DNA of 54,071 nucleotides from Endomicrobiaceae bacterium (lineage in GTDB: Bacteria > Elusimicrobiota > Endomicrobiia > Endomicrobiales > Endomicrobiaceae), in contig JAQVBD010000007.1 of the NCBI GenBank assembly GCA_028690485.1, positions 1 to 54,071 on the forward strand, given 5' to 3'. Shown in pieces: positions 13,972 through 34,348 of the stretch. The stretch's first letter is position 1, and the number at the start of each line of letters is the position of its first letter. The notes beneath the pieces were generated by a model. The model was not told the DNA's origin and did not search any database. It saw only the letters and a program-made list of their open reading frames with translations. The position numbers and the translations under genes were made by a program.

Positions 13972-14430
13972 ATGAATATTATGGATTTTTTGTGCCAAGA
14001 GGCAATTACCGTGGACTTAAAGGCACAAAACAAAAAAGAAGCTATTATTGAGTTGATTGAACTTTTAAAGTCTACAAAGAAAATCAAAAGAACAGATGAA
14101 ATTATTGAAATTGTTTTGGAAAGAGAAAAATTAGGTTCAACAGGTATTGGACAGGGTGTTGCTATTCCTCATGGAAAGACAGATGTATTAAGTGAACAAG
14201 TTGGTGTTCTTGGTATATCAAAAAAAGGCATTGAATTTAATTCATTAGACGGTGAGCCTGTATATATAATATTTTTATTAGTTGGGCCGGTAGAAGTTAC
14301 AGGACAACATTTAAAGGCACTATCAAGAATTTCAAGACTTTTTAAAGATAAATTTTTAAGACAAGCTATAAAAGATGCAGATACAAAAGAAGATATAGTT
14401 AAAATAATCCAACAAGAGGATGCCTATTGA
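13972..14430 (+). CDS. ptsN: PTS EIIA domain protein, PtsN (EIIA-Ntr)-like
   Basis: A stand-alone fructose/mannitol-type EIIA domain of 152 residues. His67 in AIPHGKT is the expected phosphorylation site, and the flanking STGIGQGVAIPHGKT sequence is characteristic of PtsN. PtsN proteins usually regulate rather than transport sugars, with targets such as potassium handling and metabolic enzymes. The ATG has a strong AGGAGG site (13959-13964). It is followed immediately by hprK, the same pairing seen in several Gram-negative groups. The phosphate donor here may be the HPr encoded in the same operon, as no separate NPr is present. Confidence 0.88.
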   Translation: MNIMDFLCQEAITVDLKAQNKKEAIIELIELLKSTKKIKRTDEIIEIVLEREKLGSTGIGQGVAIPHGKTDVLSEQVGVLGISKKGIEFNSLDGEPVYIIFLLVGPVEVTGQHLKALSRISRLFKDKFLRQAIKDADTKEDIVKIIQQEDAY

Positions 14431-15377
14431 TGAAAGTGCTAAATGTTGGCACTTTAATTGAAGAGAAATCTAGTGATTTTAAACTTGAGTTAATTGCAGG
14501 TTCCGGCGGTCTTGAACGTTTGATTACAGTTGCAGATACGAACAGGCCGGGTCTTGCATTTGCAGGATATTTTGACCACTTACCTTATGAAAGAGTTCAA
14601 ATTATAGGTATTGCAGAACATACCTATCTTCAAACATTAACATATGAAAAACAATGTGATATGTTGATGAAAATTTTTTCCCCAAAGCAAGTTCCATGTT
14701 GTATCATAACAAGGTCTTTTAGCCCATTGCCGTCAATGATTGAAATATTTAATAAATTGCAGGTTCCTCTTTTGAGTACAGTTTTAACATCAGCTCAATT
14801 ATTAGGTGATTTAGTTTATTACTTTGATGAAAAATTAGCCCCAACTCAAAAAGTTCATGGTGTATTATCAAATGTTTATGGGTTAGGTGTTTTTATAAGA
14901 GGTAAGTCTGGTATAGGGAAGTCTGAATGTGCATTGGAACTTGTTAAAAGAGGTCATATGCTTGTTTCTGATGATGTTGTTGAAATAACGAAGAGGTCAG
15001 GGCATATATTAATTGGCAAAAGTTCTGGAATTGTAAAACATCATATGGAAGTTAGAGGAATAGGTATAATTGATATAAAAAATATGTTTGGAATAGCAAA
15101 TATTTTAGATGAATCAAAAATTGAATTAGTTATAAATCTTGTAGAATGGAATGATGCAAAAAGATATGAACGTTTAGGTATAGATGAATATTATACAGAT
15201 GTTTTAGGGGTTAATGTTCCTGAACTTACTATCCCTGTTGGTCCAGGTAGAAACCTTGCTATTATAGTTGAAACAGCAAGTTTAAATCAAAGATTAAAAA
15301 ATAAAGGGTACTTTTCTGCCGTAGAACTAAATAATAAAATAATAGCTGAAATGAATGAACTCAAAAATGAAAAATAA
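14430..15377 (+). CDS. hprK: HPr kinase/phosphorylase
   Basis: ATP- or PPi-dependent kinase that phosphorylates HPr on Ser46, and phosphorylase that removes it, linking metabolic state to carbon control. The 315 residues have an N-terminal sensor-like domain to about 130 and the catalytic domain with P-loop GKSGIGKS (158-165), the acid/base SDD segment, and the HprK signature EVRGIGIIDI. I chose ATG 14430 over TTG 14427 because AGAGGA lies 9 bases upstream. It overlaps ptsN by one base. Its substrate, with Ser46 retained, is encoded 7 kb downstream in the same operon. Confidence 0.95.
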   Translation: MKVLNVGTLIEEKSSDFKLELIAGSGGLERLITVADTNRPGLAFAGYFDHLPYERVQIIGIAEHTYLQTLTYEKQCDMLMKIFSPKQVPCCIITRSFSPLPSMIEIFNKLQVPLLSTVLTSAQLLGDLVYYFDEKLAPTQKVHGVLSNVYGLGVFIRGKSGIGKSECALELVKRGHMLVSDDVVEITKRSGHILIGKSSGIVKHHMEVRGIGIIDIKNMFGIANILDESKIELVINLVEWNDAKRYERLGIDEYYTDVLGVNVPELTIPVGPGRNLAIIVETASLNQRLKNKGYFSAVELNNKIIAEMNELKNEK

Positions 15378-21602: not shown

Positions 21603-21872
21603 ATGACAGAAAAAAAATTAAAAATTGTAAACAAGCTTGGGCTTCATGCAAGACCAGCATCTCTTATTGTTCAAACCGCAATGAACTTTTCTTCGAATAT
21701 CTCTATTATAAAAGATGAATATACAATAGATGGTAAGAGTATTATGGGAATAATGATGTTAGCGGCTGGATGTGGTAGCGAGTTAATAGTCAGGATAGAT
21801 GGTTCTGATGAAAATAATGCAATGGATAAAATAGAAGAGTTATTTAATAATGGGTTTGGAGAAGAGATATGA
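21603..21872 (+). CDS. ptsH: Phosphocarrier protein HPr
   Basis: General PTS phosphocarrier of 89 residues. His15 in NKLGLHARPAS accepts phosphate from Enzyme I. Ser46 in DGKSIMGIMMLAA is the HprK regulatory site and is retained with its hydrophobic neighbours. This makes it a regulated, HprK-controlled HPr and not an NPr. Its start is directly after the EIID stop, and it overlaps Enzyme I by 4 bases (ATGA). Confidence 0.95.
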   Translation: MTEKKLKIVNKLGLHARPASLIVQTAMNFSSNISIIKDEYTIDGKSIMGIMMLAAGCGSELIVRIDGSDENNAMDKIEELFNNGFGEEI

Positions 21873-23626
21873 CAAATATTACAGATATTTCAAATAAAAC
21901 AAATATTATTTTGAATGGTGTCCCTGCTTCTGCTGGAGTTGCTATTGGAAAAGTTTTTATTCTGGAAGATGATGATTTTATTTTAATTGAAAAAGAAATA
22001 TCTGTTGATAAAATACAAGATGAAATAGTTCGTTTTAAAGAAGCAATAGAAAAAACGAGATTAGAACTTCAAGAAAATCATGCAAAACTTAATGATATGC
22101 TTGGTGAGAATTATGCAAAGATAGCAGATGCTCATTTATTAATATTAAATGATCCTATAATAAATAAAGAATCTTTTGAAATAATAAATAATGGCAATAA
22201 TGCAGAATATGCTATTTATAAAGTTGTAGAAAAAATTTCAAGATCTTTTGATTTAATAGATGATGAATATTTTAGAGAAAGAAAACATGATATCATAGAT
22301 GTTGCTAAAAAAGTTATAAGACATCTATTAGGCAAACAAAAAAAAACATTAGCAGATTTAGATGCTGATTCAATTGTAGTTGCAAAAAATTTGACACCTT
22401 CGGATACTATTGCAATGAGAGAAGTAATGGTCAGGGGGTTTGCAACAGATATCGGTGGAAGAACTTCTCATACTGCTCTCGTTGCTCAGAGTCTGGAAAT
22501 TCCTGCTGTTGTGGGATTAAAAAATATTTCTATACAAGCAAAACAAGGGATGCCGATTATTGTTGATGGGAATCAGGGGATTATTATTTTAAATCCATCA
22601 GATGAAACAATAGAAAATTATAAAAGAGAATATGAAATACAAATTTCAAATCAAAAATATTTGGAACAATTTAAAGATCTTACAGCTACTACATTGGATG
22701 GTAAGGATGTTACTCTTGCTGCAAATATAGAAAATCCTGAAGAAGTTCGCTCGGTTCTTAAACATGGAGCAAGCGGCGTAGGATTATACAGAAGTGAATT
22801 TATGTATTTATCAAGAAAAACTATGCCTACAGAAGAAGAGCATTATCAAAATTATAGTAAAGTTGCAAAAATGATGATGCCATATGAAGTTATTATCAGA
22901 ACTATTGATTTGGGTGGTGATAAAATATCTAAGCTTGGCTTAATGGATATTGGAAGAGAAGCAAATCCTTTTATGGGACTTAGAGCTATAAGATTATGTT
23001 TAAAATATCCTGAAATATTTAAGGTTCAGCTAAAAGGAATTTTAAGAGCATCAATGCATGGTAATATTAAAATAATGTATCCTATGATTTCAAGAGTCAG
23101 CGAAATTAAAGAAGCAAATGAAATTTTAGAGCAAGCTAAACAGGAATTAAGACAAGAAGGTAAAAAATTTAATGAAAGTATACAAGTTGGTGTAATGATA
23201 GAAGTTCCATCAGCAGCGGTAATTGCAGATATTATTGCAAAAGAAGTTGATTTTATGTCAATAGGAACAAATGATTTAATTCAATATACAATGGCAGTTG
23301 ATAGAATAAATGAAGATGTTGCACATCTTTATGACCCTTTACATCTAGCAATTTTAAGGCTTCTTAAGACTATTATTGATGCAGGGCATGCTGCAGGAAA
23401 AGAAGTTGGCATGTGCGGTGAAATGGCTGGTGACCCAACTTATTCTGTTGTATTATTGGGGTTAGGTCTTGATGAATTTAGTATGTCTGCTGCACAAATT
23501 CCTAAAATCAAAAAAATTATTAGAAATGTATCTAAAATAGAAGCAAAAGAATTAGTAGATGAGTTACTAAAATGCAGTACTGTTACTGAAATTTCCACTG
23601 TTATGAAGAAGTTTAAATACAGATAA
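21869..23626 (+). CDS. ptsI: PTS Enzyme I (phosphoenolpyruvate-protein phosphotransferase)
   Basis: First enzyme of the PTS, autophosphorylated by PEP. Among 585 residues, His201 in GGRTSHTALVAQ is the phosphorylated site, preceded by the HPr-binding helical domain (about 45-160). The C-terminal PEP-binding barrel shows GVGLYRSEFMY, RTIDLGGDKISKLG, GVMIEVPSAAV, FMSIGTNDLIQYTMAVDR and GMCGEMAGDP. Length and motifs are normal. It ends the operon, 12 bases before the terminator hairpin. Confidence 0.96.
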   Translation: MTNITDISNKTNIILNGVPASAGVAIGKVFILEDDDFILIEKEISVDKIQDEIVRFKEAIEKTRLELQENHAKLNDMLGENYAKIADAHLLILNDPIINKESFEIINNGNNAEYAIYKVVEKISRSFDLIDDEYFRERKHDIIDVAKKVIRHLLGKQKKTLADLDADSIVVAKNLTPSDTIAMREVMVRGFATDIGGRTSHTALVAQSLEIPAVVGLKNISIQAKQGMPIIVDGNQGIIILNPSDETIENYKREYEIQISNQKYLEQFKDLTATTLDGKDVTLAANIENPEEVRSVLKHGASGVGLYRSEFMYLSRKTMPTEEEHYQNYSKVAKMMMPYEVIIRTIDLGGDKISKLGLMDIGREANPFMGLRAIRLCLKYPEIFKVQLKGILRASMHGNIKIMYPMISRVSEIKEANEILEQAKQELRQEGKKFNESIQVGVMIEVPSAAVIADIIAKEVDFMSIGTNDLIQYTMAVDRINEDVAHLYDPLHLAILRLLKTIIDAGHAAGKEVGMCGEMAGDPTYSVVLLGLGLDEFSMSAAQIPKIKKIIRNVSKIEAKELVDELLKCSTVTEISTVMKKFKYR

Positions 23627-23718: not shown

Positions 23719-25071
23719 TTAGATATCCATTACTATTTTATTTCTTCCGGATTGTTTTGCTTGGTAAAGAGCTTTATCTGCAATAGAAATCACATCATTT
23801 GATGAAGTATTATTTTGATATTTTGATATCCCGATACTTATTGTAACAGAAAAAGTAAAATTATTTTCGTTGAATCTCGTTTTTTGGACAGAAGACCTTA
23901 TAGTTTCAGCAATATTTAATACTTGTTCTTCTGATACCATTGGGAGTAAAACAATAAATTCTTCACCACCATATCTTCCTATTAAATCTCCAGGTCTTAC
24001 AGATTTTGAAAGAACTTTTGATATAGCTACAAGTACTTTATCTCCAACCAAATGTCCATAAGTATCGTTGATTTTTTTAAAAAAATCAATATCTAACATT
24101 AAAATATAAAAATCAGTTTTATATCTTTTTGATCTTTGGAATTCTGTATATAATCTTTCCATAAAGTATCTTCTCAAATATAATCCTGTTAAACCATCAA
24201 CCCTTGCTTTTTCTTGTAATTCTGCGAATAAACGGATTCTTTTTGTTCCCAAAATTAAATGAGGTAAAAATAAATGACCTCCTTCTAGATATGTTTGAAC
24301 ATAATCTTTTTCAACTACTAAAAAAACACAAGATATAAAAGTATTATCTATGACAATTGGCCAAGCTACTATAGGCTGATTCTCAATATAATTCATAAAA
24401 TTAACCATAGTTGGTTTTGTAAAATTAATTATTGTTTGATAATGGTCTTTTAAGGCAATATCCCATTTCTTTTTAATATCTGGTTTTTGTGTTGCTAGTT
24501 GTGTTGATATTATTGTTAAATGAGTCTTTTGCGGATATTTTACTACAACTAGTATATAAGAAATACCTGGTCTGGAAGATAATACGGTAGATAATGCGTT
24601 TGCACTGTCTTCTGCTGTTATATTTTTAGTTAAATCTTTAGAAATGATATAAAGTTGTATAATCCTTTCTAATTTTTTTTCTAATGATAATCTTGCTTGG
24701 TTAAGACTTTGCTCTTCATTTAATAATTCTTCTTTAAAAAATTTTAATTCATTATTTTTCTTTTGTAAATCCGGTGACTGTATTTTGTTAGGTTTAAAAA
24801 AACAACATAAAGTTGGTATTATAGATATAAATATTGAAGAGATAATAATAGTTAAATAATTAAATCCAAAAGTTATAATGGCAGAAATAACTGCTATTAA
24901 ACTAAAAATGACAATAGAACATCTATATACATAAGAAAATAATAAAGATATAGGCAATAAAAATAACAATAGAATATAATGTTCTATTTCGTTATTTACC
25001 ATATTGTATATGATAAAAAAACATATAAATATTAATGCGATTTTTAAATAAAATTTTATTTTAGTATTCAT
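23719..25071 (-). CDS. Membrane diguanylate cyclase (GGDEF) A
   Basis: Makes c-di-GMP from two GTP. Several hydrophobic segments span about residues 7-93 (membrane anchor), a coiled coil lies at about 100-140, and a GAF-like region at about 140-275. The GGDEF domain begins at DGLTGLYLRRYF and has a GGEEF active site (368-372), a common active variant. The upstream RPGD (359-362), spaced five residues before, is the product-inhibition I-site. It overlaps the partner gene by 4 bases and is the last gene of the minus-strand cluster. No EAL or HD-GYP domain is present. Confidence 0.9.
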   Translation of the reverse strand: MNTKIKFYLKIALIFICFFIIYNMVNNEIEHYILLLFLLPISLLFSYVYRCSIVIFSLIAVISAIITFGFNYLTIIISSIFISIIPTLCCFFKPNKIQSPDLQKKNNELKFFKEELLNEEQSLNQARLSLEKKLERIIQLYIISKDLTKNITAEDSANALSTVLSSRPGISYILVVVKYPQKTHLTIISTQLATQKPDIKKKWDIALKDHYQTIINFTKPTMVNFMNYIENQPIVAWPIVIDNTFISCVFLVVEKDYVQTYLEGGHLFLPHLILGTKRIRLFAELQEKARVDGLTGLYLRRYFMERLYTEFQRSKRYKTDFYILMLDIDFFKKINDTYGHLVGDKVLVAISKVLSKSVRPGDLIGRYGGEEFIVLLPMVSEEQVLNIAETIRSSVQKTRFNENNFTFSVTISIGISKYQNNTSSNDVISIADKALYQAKQSGRNKIVMDI

Positions 25072-26447
25072 TTATTTTCTGTATAGATACAAGTTTTATT
25101 TCTTCCAGTGTTTTTTGCTTTATATAATGCTAAATCAGCTTTTTGTATAATTTCATCAGTTGTCTTTTCTTTATTTAATTCTGCCAAACCAATACTAATA
25201 GTTTTTCTAATTTGTATTGGGTGATAACTCTCAACTGGAAGAAAAAATTTCTCATTTTCTATATTTTTTCTTATTTCCTCAAGTATTGCAAATCCATCAG
25301 TAATAGCAGTTTGCGATATAAAAATAGTAAATTCTTCACCACCATATCTTGCAATGATATCAATTTCTCTAAATCTTTTTCTTAAAATATCTGCAATTTG
25401 TCTTAAAAGCATGTCTCCTGCAATATGTCCATATTTATCATTTACTGATTTAAAATGATCTATATCTATCATAGCAATAACCATAGAAAGATTGTTACTG
25501 TTTGCTCTTTCAATTTCTTCTTGTAATCTTTCTATAAAGTATGTTCTTGTGTAAAGGCCGGTTAATCCGTCTGTTATTACAAGAGCAGATATTTTGTTGA
25601 AAAGTGAAGTATTATATAAAATAATACCTAATATATTAGATAGAACTGAAAGTAATCTTAAATCAGAATCATTAAATTTAATGTTTTTAATAATAGAAAT
25701 ACCTTCTATATATCCCCAATATAGACCTTCAACTTCTATAGGCATAACTATAATGGATGTTATATCTTTGTAATCATTATTAGAAAATCTTTTATCATCA
25801 GATGTATCAGTTATTAATAATGGGATTTTATTTGTTTTTACATACTCAATAAAAATATTCTTTTTAAAAAATCTTTTTGTTTTCCATTTGCCTTTACTGA
25901 TAAATTTACTTGTTAATTCTTCAATAAGTTTTATTAATTCATGTTCGTTCATAGAAGATTCTAATGAACTGATAATTTTTTCAAATTTTTGAAAATTTGC
26001 CATTCTTTGTATCAAAGCAGAACTTCTTTTTTCATTTTCTGTAATCGATGATTGTATTAAAGCAATATCTCTATCTAATACTTCATGCTCAACTTCTAAT
26101 TTCCTTTTTAAAGATATATATATATTACGATGATGTTCTAATCTAAAAAAGACGAATACCATCCATATAATTTCATATATGAGCATAATTTTATCATAAG
26201 AATTATCAATAATAGCTATTGCAAATAGTCCTGCAGATACTGTAAAAGCAAGTAAAACTCCGCCAAAAACAGGACCTGATAAAAAATAAATAATTAAAAA
26301 AATTATAAAAACTGTTGGAAAAGTTATAACTGGATATTGAAAAAAATAAAATATCCATATAACAAAACAAATCCCACCAAAGACTGGGAGAATGATAGTA
26401 GTTAATATATCAATAAAAAATCGTTTATATGCTTCAATATCTATCAT
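25068..26447 (-). CDS. Membrane diguanylate cyclase (GGDEF) B
   Basis: A 459-residue relative of the previous gene. Hydrophobic segments occupy about residues 13-105, a coiled coil about 112-165, and a GAF-like domain about 165-285 (SIIVMPIEVEGLYWGYIEGIS). The GGDEF domain starts at DGLTGLYTRTYF with GGEEF at 369-373. An intact I-site REID (360-363) precedes it by five residues. The shared architecture and tandem, overlapping placement suggest a duplication, although the sensory parts have diverged. It overlaps the SpoVG-like gene by 4 bases. Confidence 0.9.
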   Translation of the reverse strand: MIDIEAYKRFFIDILTTIILPVFGGICFVIWIFYFFQYPVITFPTVFIIFLIIYFLSGPVFGGVLLAFTVSAGLFAIAIIDNSYDKIMLIYEIIWMVFVFFRLEHHRNIYISLKRKLEVEHEVLDRDIALIQSSITENEKRSSALIQRMANFQKFEKIISSLESSMNEHELIKLIEELTSKFISKGKWKTKRFFKKNIFIEYVKTNKIPLLITDTSDDKRFSNNDYKDITSIIVMPIEVEGLYWGYIEGISIIKNIKFNDSDLRLLSVLSNILGIILYNTSLFNKISALVITDGLTGLYTRTYFIERLQEEIERANSNNLSMVIAMIDIDHFKSVNDKYGHIAGDMLLRQIADILRKRFREIDIIARYGGEEFTIFISQTAITDGFAILEEIRKNIENEKFFLPVESYHPIQIRKTISIGLAELNKEKTTDEIIQKADLALYKAKNTGRNKTCIYTENK

Positions 26448-27022
26448 TGTAATATACCTTTATTTTTCTTTTGGTGATAGAGTTTCAAAATTTCTTTTTC
26501 TAAATTATATTCCAAATTTGAATCTTTAATTATAAATAATTTCTTCCATTTGTTATTTTGTTTTTCAGATGGCCATTGTACCCATAATCCATATTTACCA
26601 TTTAAAATAGTACATTGAACCTCAAGTAAATTATTAAATATCACAGATACAAATGCTTTCGCTTTTGATGGATTATCTATAATATTAAATTTATTTATTT
26701 TATAATCGATATTTTGGTAATCTTTTTTATAAATTTTTTTATTTGATTTTATTTCGGCGATTATACTATCTTTGAATTGTCTATCTAAGAACGAAAAATA
26801 AACATATTGATTTCTTTTACTTTTATAATAAGGACTTATTAATAAATCTTTATCATCAGCTACTTCTAATTTTAATCCATGTAATTCTATCGTATTATTA
26901 AATTCTATTGAAATATCTGATAGATTTTTATTGTCAATAAAAGAAATATCAAAAGTTTGGCAGTAACCTATTTGACAAAAAAACAATAACAAGAAACTAA
27001 ATACAAATTTGTATATATTCAT
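26444..27022 (-). CDS. Exported protein with two SpoVG-like repeats
   Basis: Chosen start is ATG 27022, giving 192 residues; a TTG at 27067 would add 15 residues that lack an obvious ribosome-binding site. Residues 1-21 are a signal peptide (hydrophobic core FVFSFLLLFFC; the IGYC end is not a standard lipobox). Residues about 120-185 (KAFVSVIFNNLLEV, ILNGKYGLWVQWPSEK, a WKKLFIIKD strand, then an acidic helix) align by eye with SpoVG, a small cytosolic nucleic-acid-binding regulator. Residues about 38-93 follow the same layout (IEFNNTIELHGLKL, KDLLISPYYKSKRNQ, YFSFLDRQFKD). The repeat reading is mine, not proven. Its function outside the cytoplasm is unknown. Confidence 0.55.
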   Translation of the reverse strand: MNIYKFVFSFLLLFFCQIGYCQTFDISFIDNKNLSDISIEFNNTIELHGLKLEVADDKDLLISPYYKSKRNQYVYFSFLDRQFKDSIIAEIKSNKKIYKKDYQNIDYKINKFNIIDNPSKAKAFVSVIFNNLLEVQCTILNGKYGLWVQWPSEKQNNKWKKLFIIKDSNLEYNLEKEILKLYHQKKNKGILQ

Positions 27023-27070
27023 AATAATAACACTAATAATTCTAACACAAGTTAGGCAAATATACAATGA

Positions 27071-28078
27071 TTACTTGTGAAAAAATTTAAAAAATTTCTC
27101 TGCATTAAGATTTTTATCATTACCAAGATAAAAACAATATACTTGTTTGTTTTTTATTAGTAACATTATACAAGCATATAATCTTAAAATAATTAGATAA
27201 GATTTTTGAATACTGTCTTTAAAACCTCCTATTAAAAAATATTCTATAACTTGAGGTAGCCCAAATCCAATAATACAGTTTTTAAATAATTCTTGAAATG
27301 CACAAAATCTATTTTTTTTAACAATTTCTGATGTGTTAGAAAAAAATCTTTTACCATAAAGAATTATAGTTGGTAATTTTCTTGTTTCAATTCTGTCCTT
27401 AAAAAATTCATAACTGATAAGTTTTTTTTGACCAAATTTTCTTCTGTTAAAAATAGTAATAAATTTTTCCGGTATATAATTTGTTTGAATATCATTACAT
27501 AGTCCAATTCTGATAGGGAAAGGATAAATATATCCATTTTTGTCAATAAAGGGCGTATCATCTGAAAGCAATTTTACAGTATCGTTTTTTAATAGTTCCA
27601 TAAGTAATGTGCTTTTGCCTCCGCCTTGTGGCAACATGCAAATATATATTTTATCTTCGAATGAAAATGCACAACTATGAATTCTGTGAAATCCTTTCAT
27701 ATCAAGCATTTCTCCGACCCTTGAATGTACAAAAAGATATGTAATTTCATACAGTAAGTCGGGAGATAATGAAAATATATCAGCTTGATTTTCATTTATA
27801 TTATAAATAACAAGAGCTTTTCCAAGATAGTCAACATATCTTATTCCATTTTTATCGTAGCTTATGCAATCTGTTTTATACATTGAAGCAGTAATTTCTG
27901 GAATTTTTTCATAAGGTGGAGGGAAAATATTAATATTTAAAGATAGATCGATAGTTCTATTGGTATTATTACTGTTAAAATATGCGAAATCAGATAATAT
28001 TTTAGCTACAACATCATTAGTACCATTGATTAATACATTTATCCCATAAATATCTAAAATATCTTTTTTATTTTCCAT
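27071..28078 (-). CDS. HprK-like P-loop kinase of the biosynthetic cluster
   Basis: A 335-residue protein distinct from the PTS HprK encoded at 14430. The P-loop is QGGGKST (151-157) followed by LLMELLKNDTVKLLSDDTPF, i.e. the P-loop plus Ser-Asp-Asp (172-174) pair of the HPr-kinase fold. N-terminal 130 residues resemble a substrate-recognition domain and lack the HPr kinase N-domain. Such kinases occur in exopolysaccharide and peptide-modification loci, where their substrates are mostly unknown. It overlaps the preceding glycosyltransferase by 25 bases, so it is translationally linked. Whether it phosphorylates a protein, a peptide or a sugar carrier cannot be told. Confidence 0.7.
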   Translation of the reverse strand: MENKKDILDIYGINVLINGTNDVVAKILSDFAYFNSNNTNRTIDLSLNINIFPPPYEKIPEITASMYKTDCISYDKNGIRYVDYLGKALVIYNINENQADIFSLSPDLLYEITYLFVHSRVGEMLDMKGFHRIHSCAFSFEDKIYICMLPQGGGKSTLLMELLKNDTVKLLSDDTPFIDKNGYIYPFPIRIGLCNDIQTNYIPEKFITIFNRRKFGQKKLISYEFFKDRIETRKLPTIILYGKRFFSNTSEIVKKNRFCAFQELFKNCIIGFGLPQVIEYFLIGGFKDSIQKSYLIILRLYACIMLLIKNKQVYCFYLGNDKNLNAEKFFKFFHK

Positions 28079-29046
28079 ATAGTTCCTTGTATTATTCCTG
28101 TTATAAAACCAATACCATACGATAAATGAGATATAAAAGTAATAACCAACATCAATGCAATATCATATATATTTATATTATACAATATTGCAGTAAAAAG
28201 AACATTATAAAGGGAAACTAAAAGATAGATAAATAATAGAATAAATGTCATTTTACCAAAATATAAAGCAATCAAATAAAAAATAAAAATAGATGGTAAT
28301 AAATGGAATAATCGTAAACTGGAAGGTATAAAAAAAGTCATAAGAGCTCTTCCTTTTCCTGAATAAAAAACTTGTAAAGAAAAAGGAAGCAAAGAACTTC
28401 TTCTATGATGATATACTGATAAATCAGGAGAATATAATATTTTTACATTATTATTTTTAAGTTCTTCTAATAGTAAATTTTCTTCATTATAATGTAATAA
28501 CTTTTCAAATTTTAAATTATATTTTGTAAATAAATCTTTTTTAATTGCTAAGTTACAAAGTATTAATTCTGAGTCATCTGTATATCTGTCTTTGCCAATA
28601 CTTACATATCTATGGCTCATTTTCCAAGATAATAAATATGTAGATAACATAATACCGCTGATTTTTTCAAATTTTGTTGAATTTATAGGTGTTAAATTAG
28701 GACCGCCAATAACACCAAGTAAAGGATATGTTTCAAATTTTTCTTGTAATATCTGGATATTGTTTTTATCAATAAAAGCATCATCATCTAGAAAATAAAT
28801 TAAATCTGTGTTTATATTTTCCACACCAACATTTCTTGCATCTGATTTATTAATTTTATCATGCAGTATTGTAAAATTCATATATTGGTATTTTAATTTT
28901 ATTTCTTCTAAAAAAATTACAATTTCATTATTGAATCCATTAACTACAATGAAAATGTTGCTATTGAATTTCATTAAAGAATAAATGGTTTCTTTAAGAT
29001 AATCATATCTCTTATTTGAAATGATAAGTGTTGTAATTGTAATCAT
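28054..29046 (-). CDS. GT2 family glycosyltransferase, membrane-anchored
   Basis: A 330-residue inverting GT-A glycosyltransferase. The N-terminal domain has TTLIISNKRYDYLKETIYSLM, VVNGF, ARNVGVENINTDLIYFLDDDAFID (the DXD-type metal site near 91-94) and an SDARN loop. A GGPNLTP motif follows. The last about 100 residues contain three to four hydrophobic segments, anchoring it in the inner membrane. Acts probably on a lipid-linked glycan or glycoconjugate. The radical SAM/SPASM gene precedes it with a 4-base overlap. Donor and acceptor are unknown. Confidence 0.85.
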   Translation of the reverse strand: MITITTLIISNKRYDYLKETIYSLMKFNSNIFIVVNGFNNEIVIFLEEIKLKYQYMNFTILHDKINKSDARNVGVENINTDLIYFLDDDAFIDKNNIQILQEKFETYPLLGVIGGPNLTPINSTKFEKISGIMLSTYLLSWKMSHRYVSIGKDRYTDDSELILCNLAIKKDLFTKYNLKFEKLLHYNEENLLLEELKNNNVKILYSPDLSVYHHRRSSLLPFSLQVFYSGKGRALMTFFIPSSLRLFHLLPSIFIFYLIALYFGKMTFILLFIYLLVSLYNVLFTAILYNINIYDIALMLVITFISHLSYGIGFITGIIQGTIWKIKKIF

Positions 29047-30170
29047 TTTATATTTGTTTTAAATTTTTGAGCAATGTATAAATTTTTACCTGATTTTATA
29101 GCATCTTCTAACATATTTCCATTGGTACATGTGAGCCAACAATGGCATTGCTTTGAATTAAAAAATTTTCTAATATCATTTGCCTGTTTTGAGTTCCACA
29201 AAGTATCAAAAGAATCTTTTCTTAAATCTCCTGCAAATTTATCCTTATAAACAGGACAAAAATATACTTCACCGAAAGGATTAATCATTGCATATTTTTC
29301 GCCGCAAGGACAATTCGGAAAGTATCTTTTTTGGTTGTTTATATATTTTATAATGTAGTATAAAGATAAAAATTGAGATGTTAATCCTTCATTTGATAAA
29401 AAAGTATCCTCATTAAATTCTTTAATGCCACATTCATTTGCCATTTTTGTTGTTATTATATTAATTTGTTCTTCTATAATATTTAAAATATTATTTTGCC
29501 AAACAAATTGCTGTGTTTCTTTTTTTTGTACAAACATTTGAAAAGAGACATGGTATTTGTTTTGCTTACACCAATCATAAACTTCAACAATTTTATTACA
29601 GTTATCAGGTAAAATTGTATAATTTAAACTTAAATAAATTTCCGGGAAATCTTGTTTCAAAAGTTCAAGATTTGATACCAGATTGTTAAAAGCTCCTTCT
29701 TGCCCTCTTATTTTATCATGATCTTTTCCAATGCCGTCAATAGAAGAACCTATAGAAATTTTTTGTAAGCCTACTTCTTTTTTTATTGAATTTAATTTGT
29801 TAACAATAAGTTTTTTATCAAACAAATTAGATAAAATTAATATTTCAGTTATTGGGTAATAACTTCTTAAAAATTTAACAATATCAACTAAATCGTTTCG
29901 AAGAAGAGCTTCTCCGCCGCTTAATACTATAAATTTTATATTTTTTAAATATTGTGATGTTTGTATAAAGGTTTTAATTTCTTCAAAACTTATTTCTTTG
30001 TTGTTTTTGTTTTTTAAATGCTTTAAATTACACATAATACATGCAGTATTGCAATTATATGTTAATTCAAAGTGTAACTCATCTGGTGGAACACAATCTA
30101 TATCTTTTGGAATAGTTGTTTTTTCTATAAAAGCTCCAAATTTGTAAATAAAGTCTTTAAGTTCTTTCAA
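29043..30170 (-). CDS. Radical SAM/SPASM domain protein
   Basis: A 375-residue radical SAM enzyme. The cluster motif is CNTACIMC (Cys40, 44, 47), and the barrel contains LSGGEALLRNDL. The C-terminal SPASM-like region has GEVYFCPVYKDKFAGDLRKD and CHCWLTCTNG, giving Cys residues for auxiliary Fe-S clusters. This combination typically modifies peptides or acts in cofactor and glycan maturation. TTG at 30170 is the start; GAGG lies 7 bases upstream. It overlaps both neighbours by 4 bases. No candidate precursor peptide is encoded beside it. Confidence 0.85.
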   Translation of the reverse strand: MKELKDFIYKFGAFIEKTTIPKDIDCVPPDELHFELTYNCNTACIMCNLKHLKNKNNKEISFEEIKTFIQTSQYLKNIKFIVLSGGEALLRNDLVDIVKFLRSYYPITEILILSNLFDKKLIVNKLNSIKKEVGLQKISIGSSIDGIGKDHDKIRGQEGAFNNLVSNLELLKQDFPEIYLSLNYTILPDNCNKIVEVYDWCKQNKYHVSFQMFVQKKETQQFVWQNNILNIIEEQINIITTKMANECGIKEFNEDTFLSNEGLTSQFLSLYYIIKYINNQKRYFPNCPCGEKYAMINPFGEVYFCPVYKDKFAGDLRKDSFDTLWNSKQANDIRKFFNSKQCHCWLTCTNGNMLEDAIKSGKNLYIAQKFKTNIK

Positions 30171-31771
30171 GATAGTGCCTCTAATTCTTTTTCATATTTA
30201 ATTTTAAAATTGATATCTTCTTCTTCTTGTGCAATAAAAATTAATTTCTTACAAATTTCTTTAGATTTATATTCTGTTTCGAATGATTTTTCAAAACAAT
30301 CTTTAGCTTTTGAATAATTTCCATCATAAAAATAATATTCACCAAGCAAAAACCATTTATCAGGTTTAACAGCACTAATGCCGGAAGTTTCCGGATATTT
30401 TAATTTTAGTGCTAAATTGCAAAATTTTTCATAGCGTTCAAATCTGGTTGGATAATCGTTATCTTCTGATTTCCAAAATAGATGATGATTTGAATTTATT
30501 ATTCCGAATTTTTCAGGATGTTTTTTGATATAAGTTCCTTTCTCTAATGTAAAAAAAGATTGGCTGGCAAGTATAGAATCTACATAAGGTCTTACAGAAG
30601 TTAAAAATTTTAAAGTTTCGCAAAAATCTTCTTCTGTTTCAATTGGGAAACCGCACATCATATTTATTTGAAAAGATATTCCGGCTTCTTTTGTGTTTTT
30701 AAACAAATCAATAGCTTTTGATACAATAAAATTTTTATTCATTGCATCTAAAACTTTTTGTGAGCCGGATTCTATTCCATAGCCAACCCATCCGCATCCT
30801 GCTTTTTTCATTTTCGTTAATAATTCTAAAGACATATCATTTCTAACGACAGCTTGTCCTGCCCAAGAAATTTTTATATTGTTTTCTATAATTAAATCAC
30901 AAAAAATTTCTAAATTTTTTAAATTGCCATTTAATAGTAATCCGTTAAAATAAAAATAATTTATTTGTGGGAAAGTTTGTATGTGTTTTACAATTTGTTC
31001 AAATAATTTTTGTCCGCTTATAATTCTGTATTTTGGCCAGAATAGTCTTTCATAACAAAAATGACAAGCATTAATACATCCTCTGCTGTCTAATAAATCC
31101 AGCCTATTAGGCTGAGAATATTTATTGTTTAAAATATCATCTTTAAAATCAGAATAATCTGGAATTGGTAAAGAATCTAAATCTTGGATAAATTCACCTT
31201 GTCCGCAATCTATAACATTTCCATTTTGTTTCATTAAAAAACCTTTACACTGTGGTAAGTTATGTACATCAAATTTTTTGTCTAACTTTTCTAAAAGATT
31301 TTTAATGGGGATATCAGCTTCACTATAGCAGACATAATCAATAAACTTTTGTTCTGCAAAATCATAAGCCATTTGAGTTTTACTTGCTTTATGCCCAATA
31401 AAAATAATAATAGAGTCTGATTTTAATTGTTTAATTTTTTTAGCTATAGCATAACTGATATTAACAGATGGCGTATGAGTATCAAAAATAAATACTTGTG
31501 AGTTTGTATCTAAAATATCTTGTATTGATTTATTTGCATTTGAAATTTGTAAAATAGTATCTGTAAATGTATTATTTTCCCAAACAGAATAAAAATCTCT
31601 ATTATCCCAATATTTTTTGTTTTCATTATTACATTGATGATAAAAAATGTTATTCAAATCAAAACAAAAAGTTTGATGTCCAAATTGTTTTAAATATGTT
31701 GAAAAATAAGCCAATATGTATGGGGGACAATATCTTACCCACCAAGGGGCTTTAATTAAAGCAATTTTCAC
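30167..31771 (-). CDS. B12-binding-type radical SAM protein with TPR-like tail
   Basis: A 534-residue protein starting at GTG 31771 with a GAGGA site 9 bases upstream. Residues 1-190 resemble a B12-binding domain (KAPWWVRYCPPYILAYFSTYLKQFGH start), though no clear Asp-x-His-x-x-Gly cobalamin motif is visible (nearest is IFDTHTPSVN). The radical SAM motif is GCINACHFCYE (Cys232, 236, 239), followed by GYGIESGSQKVLDAM. Residues about 463-530 form two helical TPR-like repeats (WFLLGEYYFYDGNYSKAKDCFEKSF). Enzymes of this class carry out methylations or rearrangements. It lies 2 bases after the next radical SAM gene. Confidence 0.85.
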   Translation of the reverse strand: MKIALIKAPWWVRYCPPYILAYFSTYLKQFGHQTFCFDLNNIFYHQCNNENKKYWDNRDFYSVWENNTFTDTILQISNANKSIQDILDTNSQVFIFDTHTPSVNISYAIAKKIKQLKSDSIIIFIGHKASKTQMAYDFAEQKFIDYVCYSEADIPIKNLLEKLDKKFDVHNLPQCKGFLMKQNGNVIDCGQGEFIQDLDSLPIPDYSDFKDDILNNKYSQPNRLDLLDSRGCINACHFCYERLFWPKYRIISGQKLFEQIVKHIQTFPQINYFYFNGLLLNGNLKNLEIFCDLIIENNIKISWAGQAVVRNDMSLELLTKMKKAGCGWVGYGIESGSQKVLDAMNKNFIVSKAIDLFKNTKEAGISFQINMMCGFPIETEEDFCETLKFLTSVRPYVDSILASQSFFTLEKGTYIKKHPEKFGIINSNHHLFWKSEDNDYPTRFERYEKFCNLALKLKYPETSGISAVKPDKWFLLGEYYFYDGNYSKAKDCFEKSFETEYKSKEICKKLIFIAQEEEDINFKIKYEKELEALS

Positions 31772-31773
31772 TG

Positions 31774-32601
31774 TTATCTTTCCTCATCGACAATCCATTT
31801 ATATTCATCACAAGGACAAGTTTCAGCTTCACAAGGCATAGGTTTATCGTGTAATTTAAAATTAGGATCAAAAATATTTCCTATTGGTTTATTGCTTAAA
31901 GGTCCGCATCTTGTTACTGTACCATCTGCTTTAATTGATGCGTATATGTGTCCGGCACGACATAATTTGCCTTTAGTTTTTCTTCCTTCTAAATGATATT
32001 TTTGTCTATCCATATCTCCAAGATATGGTAACATCATTTCTCTTTCTTCTTTTGTATATGCATCAGGATAATGTTTTCCGCCGTATTCACCATGGAAAGC
32101 AGCAAGAGCCATTACAATACCATGTTTTTTAAATATATCATCATAATATTGTATTTTGTCCATGTTTGGTGGATAAGCGAGGTAACAAACACCTCCTTTA
32201 AATCCATATTTATATAAATATAGAACTTTTTTTATAAAAGGTTCTAATTTGCTTTCTAATGGATGAAAATTCATATCCAATCTTACTCTTTCAGGATTCA
32301 GTTTTCTTGCAAAAGTAAACATATCACCTGAAAGTTGGCAAGTAACTTTTACAGTATGTTTTTTTGATATTGCTTCTATTAATTCTATAAAGTTTGGATA
32401 GAGCATAGGTTCTCCGCCTGTAACCATTAAATGGCATTCTCCATACATATCATATAATCTATCCCATAAAGCTATCATTTCAGTTAATGGAGGATATTTA
32501 TTTAATTTATCCATCTCATCCCAAGTTTTATCAAACCAGCAATAAGGACATCTAAAATTACATCTGTAATGAGAGTCCCAAACAAAATTAACTTTTTCCA
32601 T
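31774..32601 (-). CDS. Radical SAM protein, small
   Basis: A 275-residue radical SAM enzyme with the motif CNFRCPYCWF (Cys14, 18, 21) and MVTGGEPMLYPNF. C-terminal cysteines sit in GKLCRAGHIYASIKADGTVTRCGP and PCEAETCPCDEYKW, a SPASM-like or auxiliary-cluster tail. Start: ATG with AAGGAAA upstream. It follows the DUF5989-like gene by 17 bases and precedes the B12-type radical SAM gene by 2. Its placement beside an ABC exporter is consistent with modification of an exported product; the substrate is unknown. Confidence 0.85.
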   Translation of the reverse strand: MEKVNFVWDSHYRCNFRCPYCWFDKTWDEMDKLNKYPPLTEMIALWDRLYDMYGECHLMVTGGEPMLYPNFIELIEAISKKHTVKVTCQLSGDMFTFARKLNPERVRLDMNFHPLESKLEPFIKKVLYLYKYGFKGGVCYLAYPPNMDKIQYYDDIFKKHGIVMALAAFHGEYGGKHYPDAYTKEEREMMLPYLGDMDRQKYHLEGRKTKGKLCRAGHIYASIKADGTVTRCGPLSNKPIGNIFDPNFKLHDKPMPCEAETCPCDEYKWIVDEER

Positions 32602-32618
32602 AATATTTCCTTTTATAA

Positions 32619-32771
32619 CTAAAATAAAACATATACAAATGGAACAACAGCACTACTTTTTGCAAAAACTATTAGAAGACCTAGTATCAAAAAGACTAAG
32701 AACATTGGAATTAACCACCATGCTTTCTTTTCCCAAAAGAATTCCCAAAAATCTTTAAAAAAAGATTTCAT
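32619..32771 (-). CDS. DUF5989-like small membrane protein (50 aa)
   Basis: A complete 50-codon gene starts with ATG at 32771, with AGGAG 6 bases upstream, and stops with TAG. The product has a polar aromatic N-terminus (KSFFKDFWEFFWEKKAWW), one strong membrane helix (LIPMFLVFLILGLLIVFA), and the end SSAVVPFVYVLF. This layout (charged FW-rich head, WW-L-P before the helix, conserved 'SAV-P-F-Y-L-F' tail) matches the DUF5989 family as I recall it; such proteins occur in surface-polymer loci. A 9-base gap separates it from the upstream ABC ATPase gene. Function unknown. Confidence 0.78.
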   Translation of the reverse strand: MKSFFKDFWEFFWEKKAWWLIPMFLVFLILGLLIVFAKSSAVVPFVYVLF

Positions 32772-32780
32772 TGATATCTC

Positions 32781-33521
32781 CTAAACTTTCATTTTCCGTT
32801 TATACATATCTTCAACTTCGTTAATTGGTCCAAAAGCGATTTGTTGCCCATGATCAATATATAGTGCATTTGTACAAATCTTTTTTATATCTCCGATCCC
32901 ATGAGAAATAAATAAAACAGTATGCCCATCTTCTATGACTTTTTCAAAAGCTTGGGTACATTTTTTTTGGAAAGCAATATCTCCAACAGCCAAAACTTCG
33001 TCTACTAAAATTATTCCTTGAATTGTTTGTATTACTGTAGCAAAAGCAAGTCTTGCTATCATACCAGATGAAAATTCTCCAAGTCTTGCACCCATAAAAT
33101 TACCTAATTCTGCAAATTCAACGATAGCATCCATTTTATTATCTATTTCTTTTCTTGTTATTCCATGCAATGCCCCATATAAATAAACATTTTCTAAAGC
33201 AGTAAATCTCAGATTGAATCCAAGTCCTAATTCAAACATACAAGAAATACCTTCAGTAATGTTGAAAGTTCCGGCAGTTTGTTTCATTATTCCAGATAAT
33301 ATTCTAAATAGAGTAGTTTTTCCTGCTCCATTGTGACCTATAACAGCTATCATCTCACCTTTTTTTGCAGAAAAATTTATATCTTTTAGTGCCCACAATT
33401 CTTTTTCTGGAAATTGACCACTAAGTTTGTATCTAAAAGAAGTAAAAAAAGTTAACCTTTCTTTAGTTCCTATTTTAAATTTTTTAGATAAGTTGTTTAC
33501 TTCTATAACAGTTTTATTCAT
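32781..33521 (-). CDS. ABC transporter ATPase, Wzt/TagH-like
   Basis: ATPase of a polysaccharide-type ABC-2 exporter, 246 residues. Walker A GHNGAGKTT (62-70), signature FSSGMIARLAFA, Walker B GIILVDEVLAVGD and switch His in FISHGIGD are all intact. The N-terminal TSFRYKL-PEKELWALKDINF lead-in is the Wzt/TagH pattern. It lacks the C-terminal carbohydrate-binding domain present in many Wzt proteins, suggesting that export does not depend on a chain-end cap recognised by this ATPase. It overlaps the permease gene by 4 bases. Confidence 0.92.
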   Translation of the reverse strand: MNKTVIEVNNLSKKFKIGTKERLTFFTSFRYKLSGQFPEKELWALKDINFSAKKGEMIAVIGHNGAGKTTLFRILSGIMKQTAGTFNITEGISCMFELGLGFNLRFTALENVYLYGALHGITRKEIDNKMDAIVEFAELGNFMGARLGEFSSGMIARLAFATVIQTIQGIILVDEVLAVGDIAFQKKCTQAFEKVIEDGHTVLFISHGIGDIKKICTNALYIDHGQQIAFGPINEVEDMYKRKMKV

Positions 33522-34285
33522 TGTATTTTTTCTACAAAATAACCTTCAAATTTTTTAAATAATATATAACCGACAATTGTAAATATAGTAGCTAATATAA
33601 ATACATACAATAATCCTTGAAATTCAGGACATTTTCCATCAAGTAAAATAGTTCTGGATGCTTGAATTATATGTGTCATTGGATTTAACATAATGACATT
33701 CTTTTTAAATGGAGATAACATATCTAAACTATAAAATATTGGTGTTAAAAAGAATCCCATAGTCATAAGTAAAGACCAAATCCTTCCCATATCTAAGAAA
33801 TATATCCCTATTAATGAAAGCAACAGAGAAACACCAATAATTAAATATATAGTTAAAAACAATATAGGGATTAAGAAGATAACATAAATAGAAATAAATC
33901 CTTTCATTATTGAACAAAAGATAATTAATATAAATAATTCTAATATATATGAAAACAAAACGGCAAGGATAGATGCTAGTACAATACATTCTTTAGGGAA
34001 AGATATACTTTTGACAAAGTTGCTATATCTCATAATTGATGTTATTGATGAACTTGTTGCATTTGAAAAAAAATTCCACTGTACCATACCAATAAGTAAA
34101 TATAGTGGAAAATCTTTTATTGTTTTCATCCAATCAGCAAAGATTGTATACAATATACAAAAGAAAATTAACGGGTATAATAAAGTCCAGGTAAATCCTA
34201 AAATTGTGCCTTGATCTCTCATTCTAAAATCAGAGAAAGCCAATTCCCAAATCATTAACCAATATTTTCTTATATTTTTTTTCAT
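33518..34285 (-). CDS. ABC-2 permease, Wzm/TagG-like
   Basis: Membrane subunit of the exporter. I chose ATG 34285 (255 residues). The TTG at 34348 lies in the -35 of the promoter, so the longer form is unlikely. The protein begins MKKNIRKYWLMIWELAFSDFRMRDQGTILGFTWTLLYPL, the start of Wzm-like permeases, and contains about six helices with the short C-terminal loop and helix ending FEGYFVEKIQ. It first gene of the minus-strand cluster. Substrate is probably a lipid-linked glycan or a modified polymer made by the following genes. Confidence 0.9.
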   Translation of the reverse strand: MKKNIRKYWLMIWELAFSDFRMRDQGTILGFTWTLLYPLIFFCILYTIFADWMKTIKDFPLYLLIGMVQWNFFSNATSSSITSIMRYSNFVKSISFPKECIVLASILAVLFSYILELFILIIFCSIMKGFISIYVIFLIPILFLTIYLIIGVSLLLSLIGIYFLDMGRIWSLLMTMGFFLTPIFYSLDMLSPFKKNVIMLNPMTHIIQASRTILLDGKCPEFQGLLYVFILATIFTIVGYILFKKFEGYFVEKIQ

Positions 34286-34319
34286 TATTATTAAACCAAG
34301 AGTAATATTTATCTTTGTA

Positions 34320-34348
34320 ATTATAATATTATTAGCCACTAAATGCAA
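34320..34348 (-). promoter_or_regulatory. Promoter of the ABC-radical SAM-GGDEF cluster
   Basis: Minus strand: TTGCAT (34348-34343) and a perfect TATAAT (34325-34320), 17 bases apart. Expected start near 34313 gives a leader of about 28 bases. This single promoter could serve all 11 genes. Confidence 0.7.

Follow-up and report, generated by a model that had tools for sequence, protein, structure and literature searches.

An exporter and radical SAM gene module beside a SpoVG and diguanylate cyclase module in an Endomicrobiaceae genome

Do eleven closely packed genes of an uncultured gut-type bacterium (Endomicrobiaceae, Elusimicrobiota) form one system, or have two units come to lie side by side? 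The genes occupy positions 23719–34348, on the minus strand, of a window of 54,071 nucleotides, which is the whole stretch of DNA analysed and belongs to contig 35 (C35) of a 1.63-Mb genome (G000). A first-pass annotation, made from the sequence letters, had read them as a single transcription unit under one promoter, making and exporting a modified surface product with cyclic di-GMP (c-di-GMP) signalling built in. The eleven genes are present in the order it gave, as judged by open reading frames, Pfam and curated family models, and its interpretation as a whole is partly supported. It had also described nearly all genes as linked by overlaps or gaps under 20 bases; the genes do overlap or stand no more than 20 bases apart at every junction but one, which has 48 bp between the hprK-like gene and the likely start of the SpoVG-like gene. 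We refer to the eight genes on one side of this gap (permease, ATPase, DUF5989 protein, rSAM1, rSAM2, rSAM3, GT2 and HprK-like protein) as module A, and to the three on the other (a tandem-SpoVG protein and two diguanylate cyclases) as module B. The region consists of two modules with different histories, old neighbours rather than one operon.

Gene order and promoter-like elements of the two modules

Recurrence of the set in the same order had been named as a check of the first proposal, and it was found: all eleven genes are collinear in G000, in G001 (same genus, the closest relative searched) and also, apart from an extra carbamoyltransferase gene, in G038, a member of another family. The eight genes of module A keep the window's order in G001, G007 and G017. 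The order also holds, interrupted by further genes, in G038, where the carbamoyltransferase comes after the ATPase and before DUF5989, and in G040, where the insertions include a PMT-like gene; G305 and G037 keep it for the most part. Genes added to the module in relatives include a carbamoyltransferase, a PMT-like glycosyltransferase, a GNAT protein and an SGNH-TPR protein. In G007 and G017, no module B gene follows hprK. There the 3′ end of module A adjoins housekeeping genes (in G017 ZapB/ZapA-like by weak matches, MgsA, 5-FTHF cyclo-ligase and RNase Y), and module B lies elsewhere in the genome, in G007 some 360 kb from module A on one contig.

Module B ranges across the phylum, for the most part at a distance from module A. 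Its SpoVG-like exported protein was found in the majority of the Endomicrobiaceae searched as well as in other classes of the phylum, and in many genomes the same pair of GGDEF genes comes after its gene without the exporter and radical SAM core alongside. Five members of genus g10 have module B convergent with the EI/HPr/EIID/EIIC genes exactly as in the window, again without module A. Trees of the SpoVG-like and first GGDEF proteins broadly follow taxonomy, and the copies linked to module A form no clade. Independent occurrence of the two gene sets, an outcome that the first-pass annotation had itself named as refuting, is thus seen in many genomes, and a single unit with c-di-GMP signalling built in is not supported.

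A second line of evidence comes from promoter-like elements, which are sequence predictions and not mapped starts. Upstream of the permease, TTGCAT-17-TATAAT (34320–34348, minus strand) is kept in G001 and altered in G007 and G017, where footprint comparison finds TTGCACTT..TATCAT at a similar distance from the permease start codon. The near-consensus promoter of the first-pass annotation thus survives as an element conserved in the closest relative, although its raw match is unremarkable in this AT-rich region; we set the raw promoter scan aside as uninformative, since it returned 85 promoter-like sites against 87.6 expected by chance. Within the 48-bp gap, directly before the SpoVG-like gene, stands another element, TTGTAT-17-TAGAAT with an extended −10 (TGT), at 27039–27067 (minus strand), near-identical in G001. 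Unlinked module B copies carry similar ones, TTGCAT-18-TAGAAT/TAAAAT in G017 and G007 and TTGTCT-17-TAGAAT in G010, even though module A is not upstream in any of the three. Summed over 12 genomes, which are related and do not amount to 12 independent tests, the best scores for the module B element reach 109 against 95.8 ± 3.4 for shuffles, and none of 300 shuffles reaches 109; in G184, G026, G030 and G013 the best match before the SpoVG-like gene is a different element. Starts of internal core genes, checked in four genomes, have mostly weaker matches at unconserved positions, apart from a weak one at rSAM2. Since such an element stands directly before module B, and recurs ahead of copies that are not linked to module A, the claim that all eleven genes share one promoter is not confirmed but contradicted on sequence grounds; a separate start within the region was the other refuting outcome that the first-pass annotation had named. 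The same elements bear on start codons. The mechanically called TTG starts of the permease (34348) and the SpoVG-like gene (27067) are probably wrong, as in both genes the TTG coincides with the −35 box of one of these conserved elements; ATG 34285, giving 255 aa and favoured by the footprint, and ATG 27022 are likelier.

What speaks for one integrated, c-di-GMP-controlled export system of eleven genes is the identical order in G000 and G001, its persistence in G038, the run GT2-HprK-SpoVG-GGDEF-GGDEF on a contig of G009, and the occurrence of PilZ proteins in the G000 genome. Set against the many genomes in which the modules lie apart, the separate element before SpoVG and the taxonomic signal of module B, such a system is distinctly improbable. 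The eleven-gene collinearity in G038 nevertheless favours some link between A and B and tells against two wholly separate units: because that order is found in another family despite the separations, the linkage either goes back far and was lost repeatedly, or arose on several occasions. Given their adjacency in two families, the modules may be functionally linked, and c-di-GMP may control module A. The hprK-like gene also lies beside the SpoVG-like gene in G034. There the rSAM1 gene (C170, locus L039) is interrupted by stops, which suggests that module A is decaying; a collinear GT2 remnant upstream of hprK (tblastn E = 7) is suggestive only. Taken together, two transcription units, one for biosynthesis and export of a surface glycoconjugate and one for c-di-GMP sensing from its own promoter, are the account we hold somewhat likelier to be right than wrong.

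An exported SpoVG protein and two diguanylate cyclases

The protein that the first-pass annotation called an exported repeat protein (26444–27022, minus strand) has a signal-peptide-like N-terminus, as read from its sequence, and the repeat can now be specified as two SpoVG-like domains. PF04026 matches at 35.2 bits, over its cut-off; the two halves are homologous to each other (hhalign P = 8e-5); and Foldseek aligns the protein with SpoVG structures 2ia9 and 2i9x at a probability of 1.00, with TMt 0.7–0.76 and E of about 0.008. The likeness to SpoVG, a septation and RNA/DNA-binding regulator, thus rests on both Pfam and fold. The SpoVG domain is known from cytosolic regulators, so that tandem copies behind a signal-peptide-like N-terminus are in an unusual place; SpoVG itself is a cytosolic, single-domain regulator, whereas here two domains stand in tandem and the neighbouring genes encode diguanylate cyclases. 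In relatives, short SpoVG-like genes exist separately from this one.

Both neighbouring enzymes have a hydrophobic N-terminus and carry GGEEF, in agreement with the GG(D/E)EF active-site motif, together with RxxD. The first (25068–26447, minus strand; PF00990, 143 bits) also has a weak GAF domain, which at 21.6 bits falls slightly under the cut-off of 22.4; the second lies at 23719–25071 on the same strand (PF00990, 169 bits). Module B, with its two membrane diguanylate cyclases, would then be a conserved sensing unit of Elusimicrobiota that makes c-di-GMP and is transcribed from its own promoter. On the same contig just past the window, at G000 C35:58599–58898, lies a gene for a PilZ-domain protein, a possible c-di-GMP receptor.

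Components and probable product of module A

The exporter is of the Wzm/Wzt kind, combining an ABC-2 permease with a Wzt/TagH-type ATPase. The Wzm-like permease of 255 aa (33518–34285, minus strand, as are all features below) matches PF01061 at 50.8 bits, over the cut-off, and a galactan permease model at 48.9 bits, below that model's cut-off. The ATPase of 246 aa (32781–33521; PF00005) matches PDB 6amx and 8dku and TarH/TagH at 3e-48 to 1e-35, and it ends at 246 aa, compared with 404 aa for the Wzt of 8dku, without a C-terminal glycan-binding extension. Such a carbohydrate-binding domain is present on Wzt in some systems only. A small membrane protein of 50 aa (32619–32771), absent from the list of open reading frames owing to its 80-aa limit, is confirmed as DUF5989 (PF19451, E = 1.2e-18) and is 86–96% identical in G001, G007 and G017. 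In G038, the DUF5989 gene comes after the carbamoyltransferase, as in known DUF5989/carbamoyltransferase gene pairs; the window cluster differs in having no carbamoyltransferase, and none was matched in the loci of G001, G007 and G017. The GT2 glycosyltransferase (28054–29046) has a hydrophobic C-terminal region and matches PF00535 at 50.6 bits and an HpsN-like model at 42 bits, below cut-off. The cluster recalls Wzm/Wzt and TagGH glycan export in that it unites the same permease and ATPase families with a membrane glycosyltransferase; it departs from those systems in having an ATPase without the C-terminal glycan-binding domain and no initiating transferase, and in its additional genes for radical SAM enzymes, three in number, and for a protein of the PEPCK/HprK fold. 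Within the locus there is one GT2 gene, and no gene for an initiating sugar-phosphate transferase, a polymerase or nucleotide-sugar synthesis, which speaks against the glycan reading.

All three radical SAM enzymes match PF04055, and since none reaches the curated cut-off of a named family, their chemistry is not assignable. rSAM1 (31774–32601) is STM4011-like (87 bits, cut-off 200), and its CxxxCxxC motif and C-terminal cysteines are conserved. rSAM2 (30167–31771) has an HpnJ/BchE/B12-type layout and a C-terminal TPR, scoring 95–113 bits against the rSAM_ocin_1, HpnJ and BchE models, all below cut-off; the window protein has no Pfam match for a B12-binding domain, and Omnitrophota paralogs match PF02310. 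rSAM3 (29043–30170) carries a SPASM domain (PF13186), and its nearest solved structure is SkfB (E = 6e-14), with YydG also among the nearest.

The resemblance of rSAM2 to HpnJ (110 bits), and more weakly to a ladderane B12-rSAM model (54 bits), both below cut-off, might point to a hopanoid-like or ladderane-like lipid as the molecule modified and exported. Yet the window cluster has no terpene or fatty-acid genes, and the closest counterparts of the exporter move glycans, which makes a lipid of this sort very improbable.

The eighth gene (27071–28078) encodes the protein that the first-pass annotation named a P-loop HprK-like kinase. It has no Pfam match at 0.001, Hpr_kinase_C included, and no PDB match at the sequence level, alone or as a profile. 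Its predicted structure (pLDDT 88) finds ATP-dependent PEPCKs as best Foldseek matches (E about 1e-9), and the motifs P..GGK.T/S (P-loop) and SDDT are largely invariant in nine orthologs; on predicted fold, P-loop and DD motif, it belongs to the PEPCK/HprK structural superfamily. The fold part of the name is thereby upheld, and the kinase part may be taken as probable function. It shares fold, P-loop and acidic DD motif with HPr kinase/phosphorylase, HprK-related kinases A and B, ScmC and lasso peptide kinases, but differs from this group in having no Hpr_kinase_C match and no PqqD partner, and it scores 13–22 bits against the HprK-related A and B models (cut-offs 200). Nor is the locus a SynChlorMet cassette: the ScmC model reaches 12–14 bits against a cut-off of 125, and does so in distant homologs only, and there is no PqqD. 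Canonical HprK is a separate gene of the window (14427–15377) and holds the genome's only PF07475 match (14829–15338); HPr and PTS EI also lie in the window (21603–23626), apart from the HprK-like gene. Action of the HprK-like protein on the neighbouring HPr is disfavoured, as canonical HprK exists and module A is not beside PTS genes in G007 and G017.

Pathways for ribosomally synthesized, modified peptides (RiPPs) are likewise characterised by radical SAM/SPASM enzymes and by HprK homologs, which counts against a glycan. The radical SAM enzymes might thus modify a ribosomal peptide encoded elsewhere, which the HprK-like protein would phosphorylate and the ABC transporter export. SkfB and YydG are the solved structures nearest to rSAM3, the best model for rSAM2 is a RiPP C-methyltransferase (below cut-off), and HPr kinase homologs phosphorylate lasso peptides (PMC8498205). 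The compact cluster, however, contains no precursor, PqqD/RRE or peptidase gene: the only small open reading frame upstream on the operon strand has 24 aa and overlaps tpiA, and no PqqD match was found in the cluster. The exporter is moreover of the Wzm/Wzt/TagH type and not a peptidase-containing peptide exporter. In distant Elusimicrobiota families, HprK-like loci keep glycosyltransferases and the exporter, and the three radical SAM genes are mostly absent. A GT2 homolog is present at 12 of the 14 such loci fetched (sometimes on the opposite strand) and a Wzm-like permease at 7, as against 0 of 31 unlinked module B loci for both, a comparison between loci of 4–20 kb and of 7–14 kb, neither set being independent samples. 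It is mainly for this association of HprK-like genes with GT2 and the Wzm-like permease that we prefer a glycan, and a peptide product appears unlikely.

Our best reading is accordingly close to the glycan or lipid-linked substrate first suggested from the missing precursor-peptide gene: module A would make a surface glycan or glycolipid, alter it by radical chemistry and probably by phosphorylation, and export it. The Wzt/TagH type of the ATPase, the genes added to the module in relatives and the PEPCK/HprK fold also speak for this reading. GT2 would add a sugar to a substrate that is lipid-linked or polymeric; the radical SAM enzymes, of which rSAM2 resembles B12-type enzymes, may carry out demanding chemistry on the glycan, on its lipid part or on the units from which it is built; the PEPCK/HprK-fold protein would probably phosphorylate a hydroxyl of the product or of a partner protein; and the Wzm/Wzt-type transporter would export the product without an end-recognition module.

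Radical SAM arrays and wider meaning

Strong rSAM1 orthologs were found in Elusimicrobiota only among the genomes searched, and the one contig scan with N-terminal motifs returned Elusimicrobiota and Omnitrophota only. The 10 Omnitrophota genomes searched hold no real HprK-like ortholog (two weak 18-bit matches in one genome), and a search of genome contigs with the single HprK-like protein as query found nothing. Paralogs of rSAM1 and rSAM2 form tandem arrays elsewhere, in G000 (C95 and C70), G001 (C2), G007 (C23), G160, G037 and Omnitrophota contigs. The arrays in the first three genomes run on one strand, some members having TPR or SPASM domains; that of G001 comprises at least 10 consecutive radical SAM genes and adjoins a gene for a 1297-aa NosD-like beta-helix protein. 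Some proteins of the Omnitrophota arrays have two radical SAM stretches, and one such locus (L030) also has methyltransferase-SPASM, SGNH-TPR, GT2 and PMT genes. The core permease gene of G040 shares 4 bases with an rSAM1 paralog that overlaps it. Radical SAM matches number 49 in G000, 62 in G001, 42 in G038 and 82–86 in G007 and G017, against 16–22 in five relatives in which no intact core locus was seen, two of which (G009 and G034) are incomplete assemblies, the G009 contig being cut inside GT2 so that its core may be intact.

It is tempting, if speculative and with a rather small chance of being right, to see in these paralogs, from core loci and from arrays of at least ten members, an assembly line of Elusimicrobiota and Omnitrophota for a new class of radical-modified, phosphorylated, exported glycan or peptide, with the HprK-like protein as a new kinase family acting on it.

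The literature searched, in titles and abstracts with partial coverage, yielded no description of DUF5989, radical SAM enzymes in Elusimicrobia, or Endomicrobium SpoVG or diguanylate cyclase in this connection, nor of the arrays, and no described system with this gene set, in line with the first-pass annotation. Modules A and B are thus conserved and apparently undescribed. Should our reading hold, radical SAM chemistry would be connected with the export of surface glycans in phyla of which few members are in culture; PEPCK/HprK-fold proteins would gain a phylum-wide branch linked to glycosyltransferases; and an exported SpoVG protein with diguanylate cyclases would be defined as a signalling unit.
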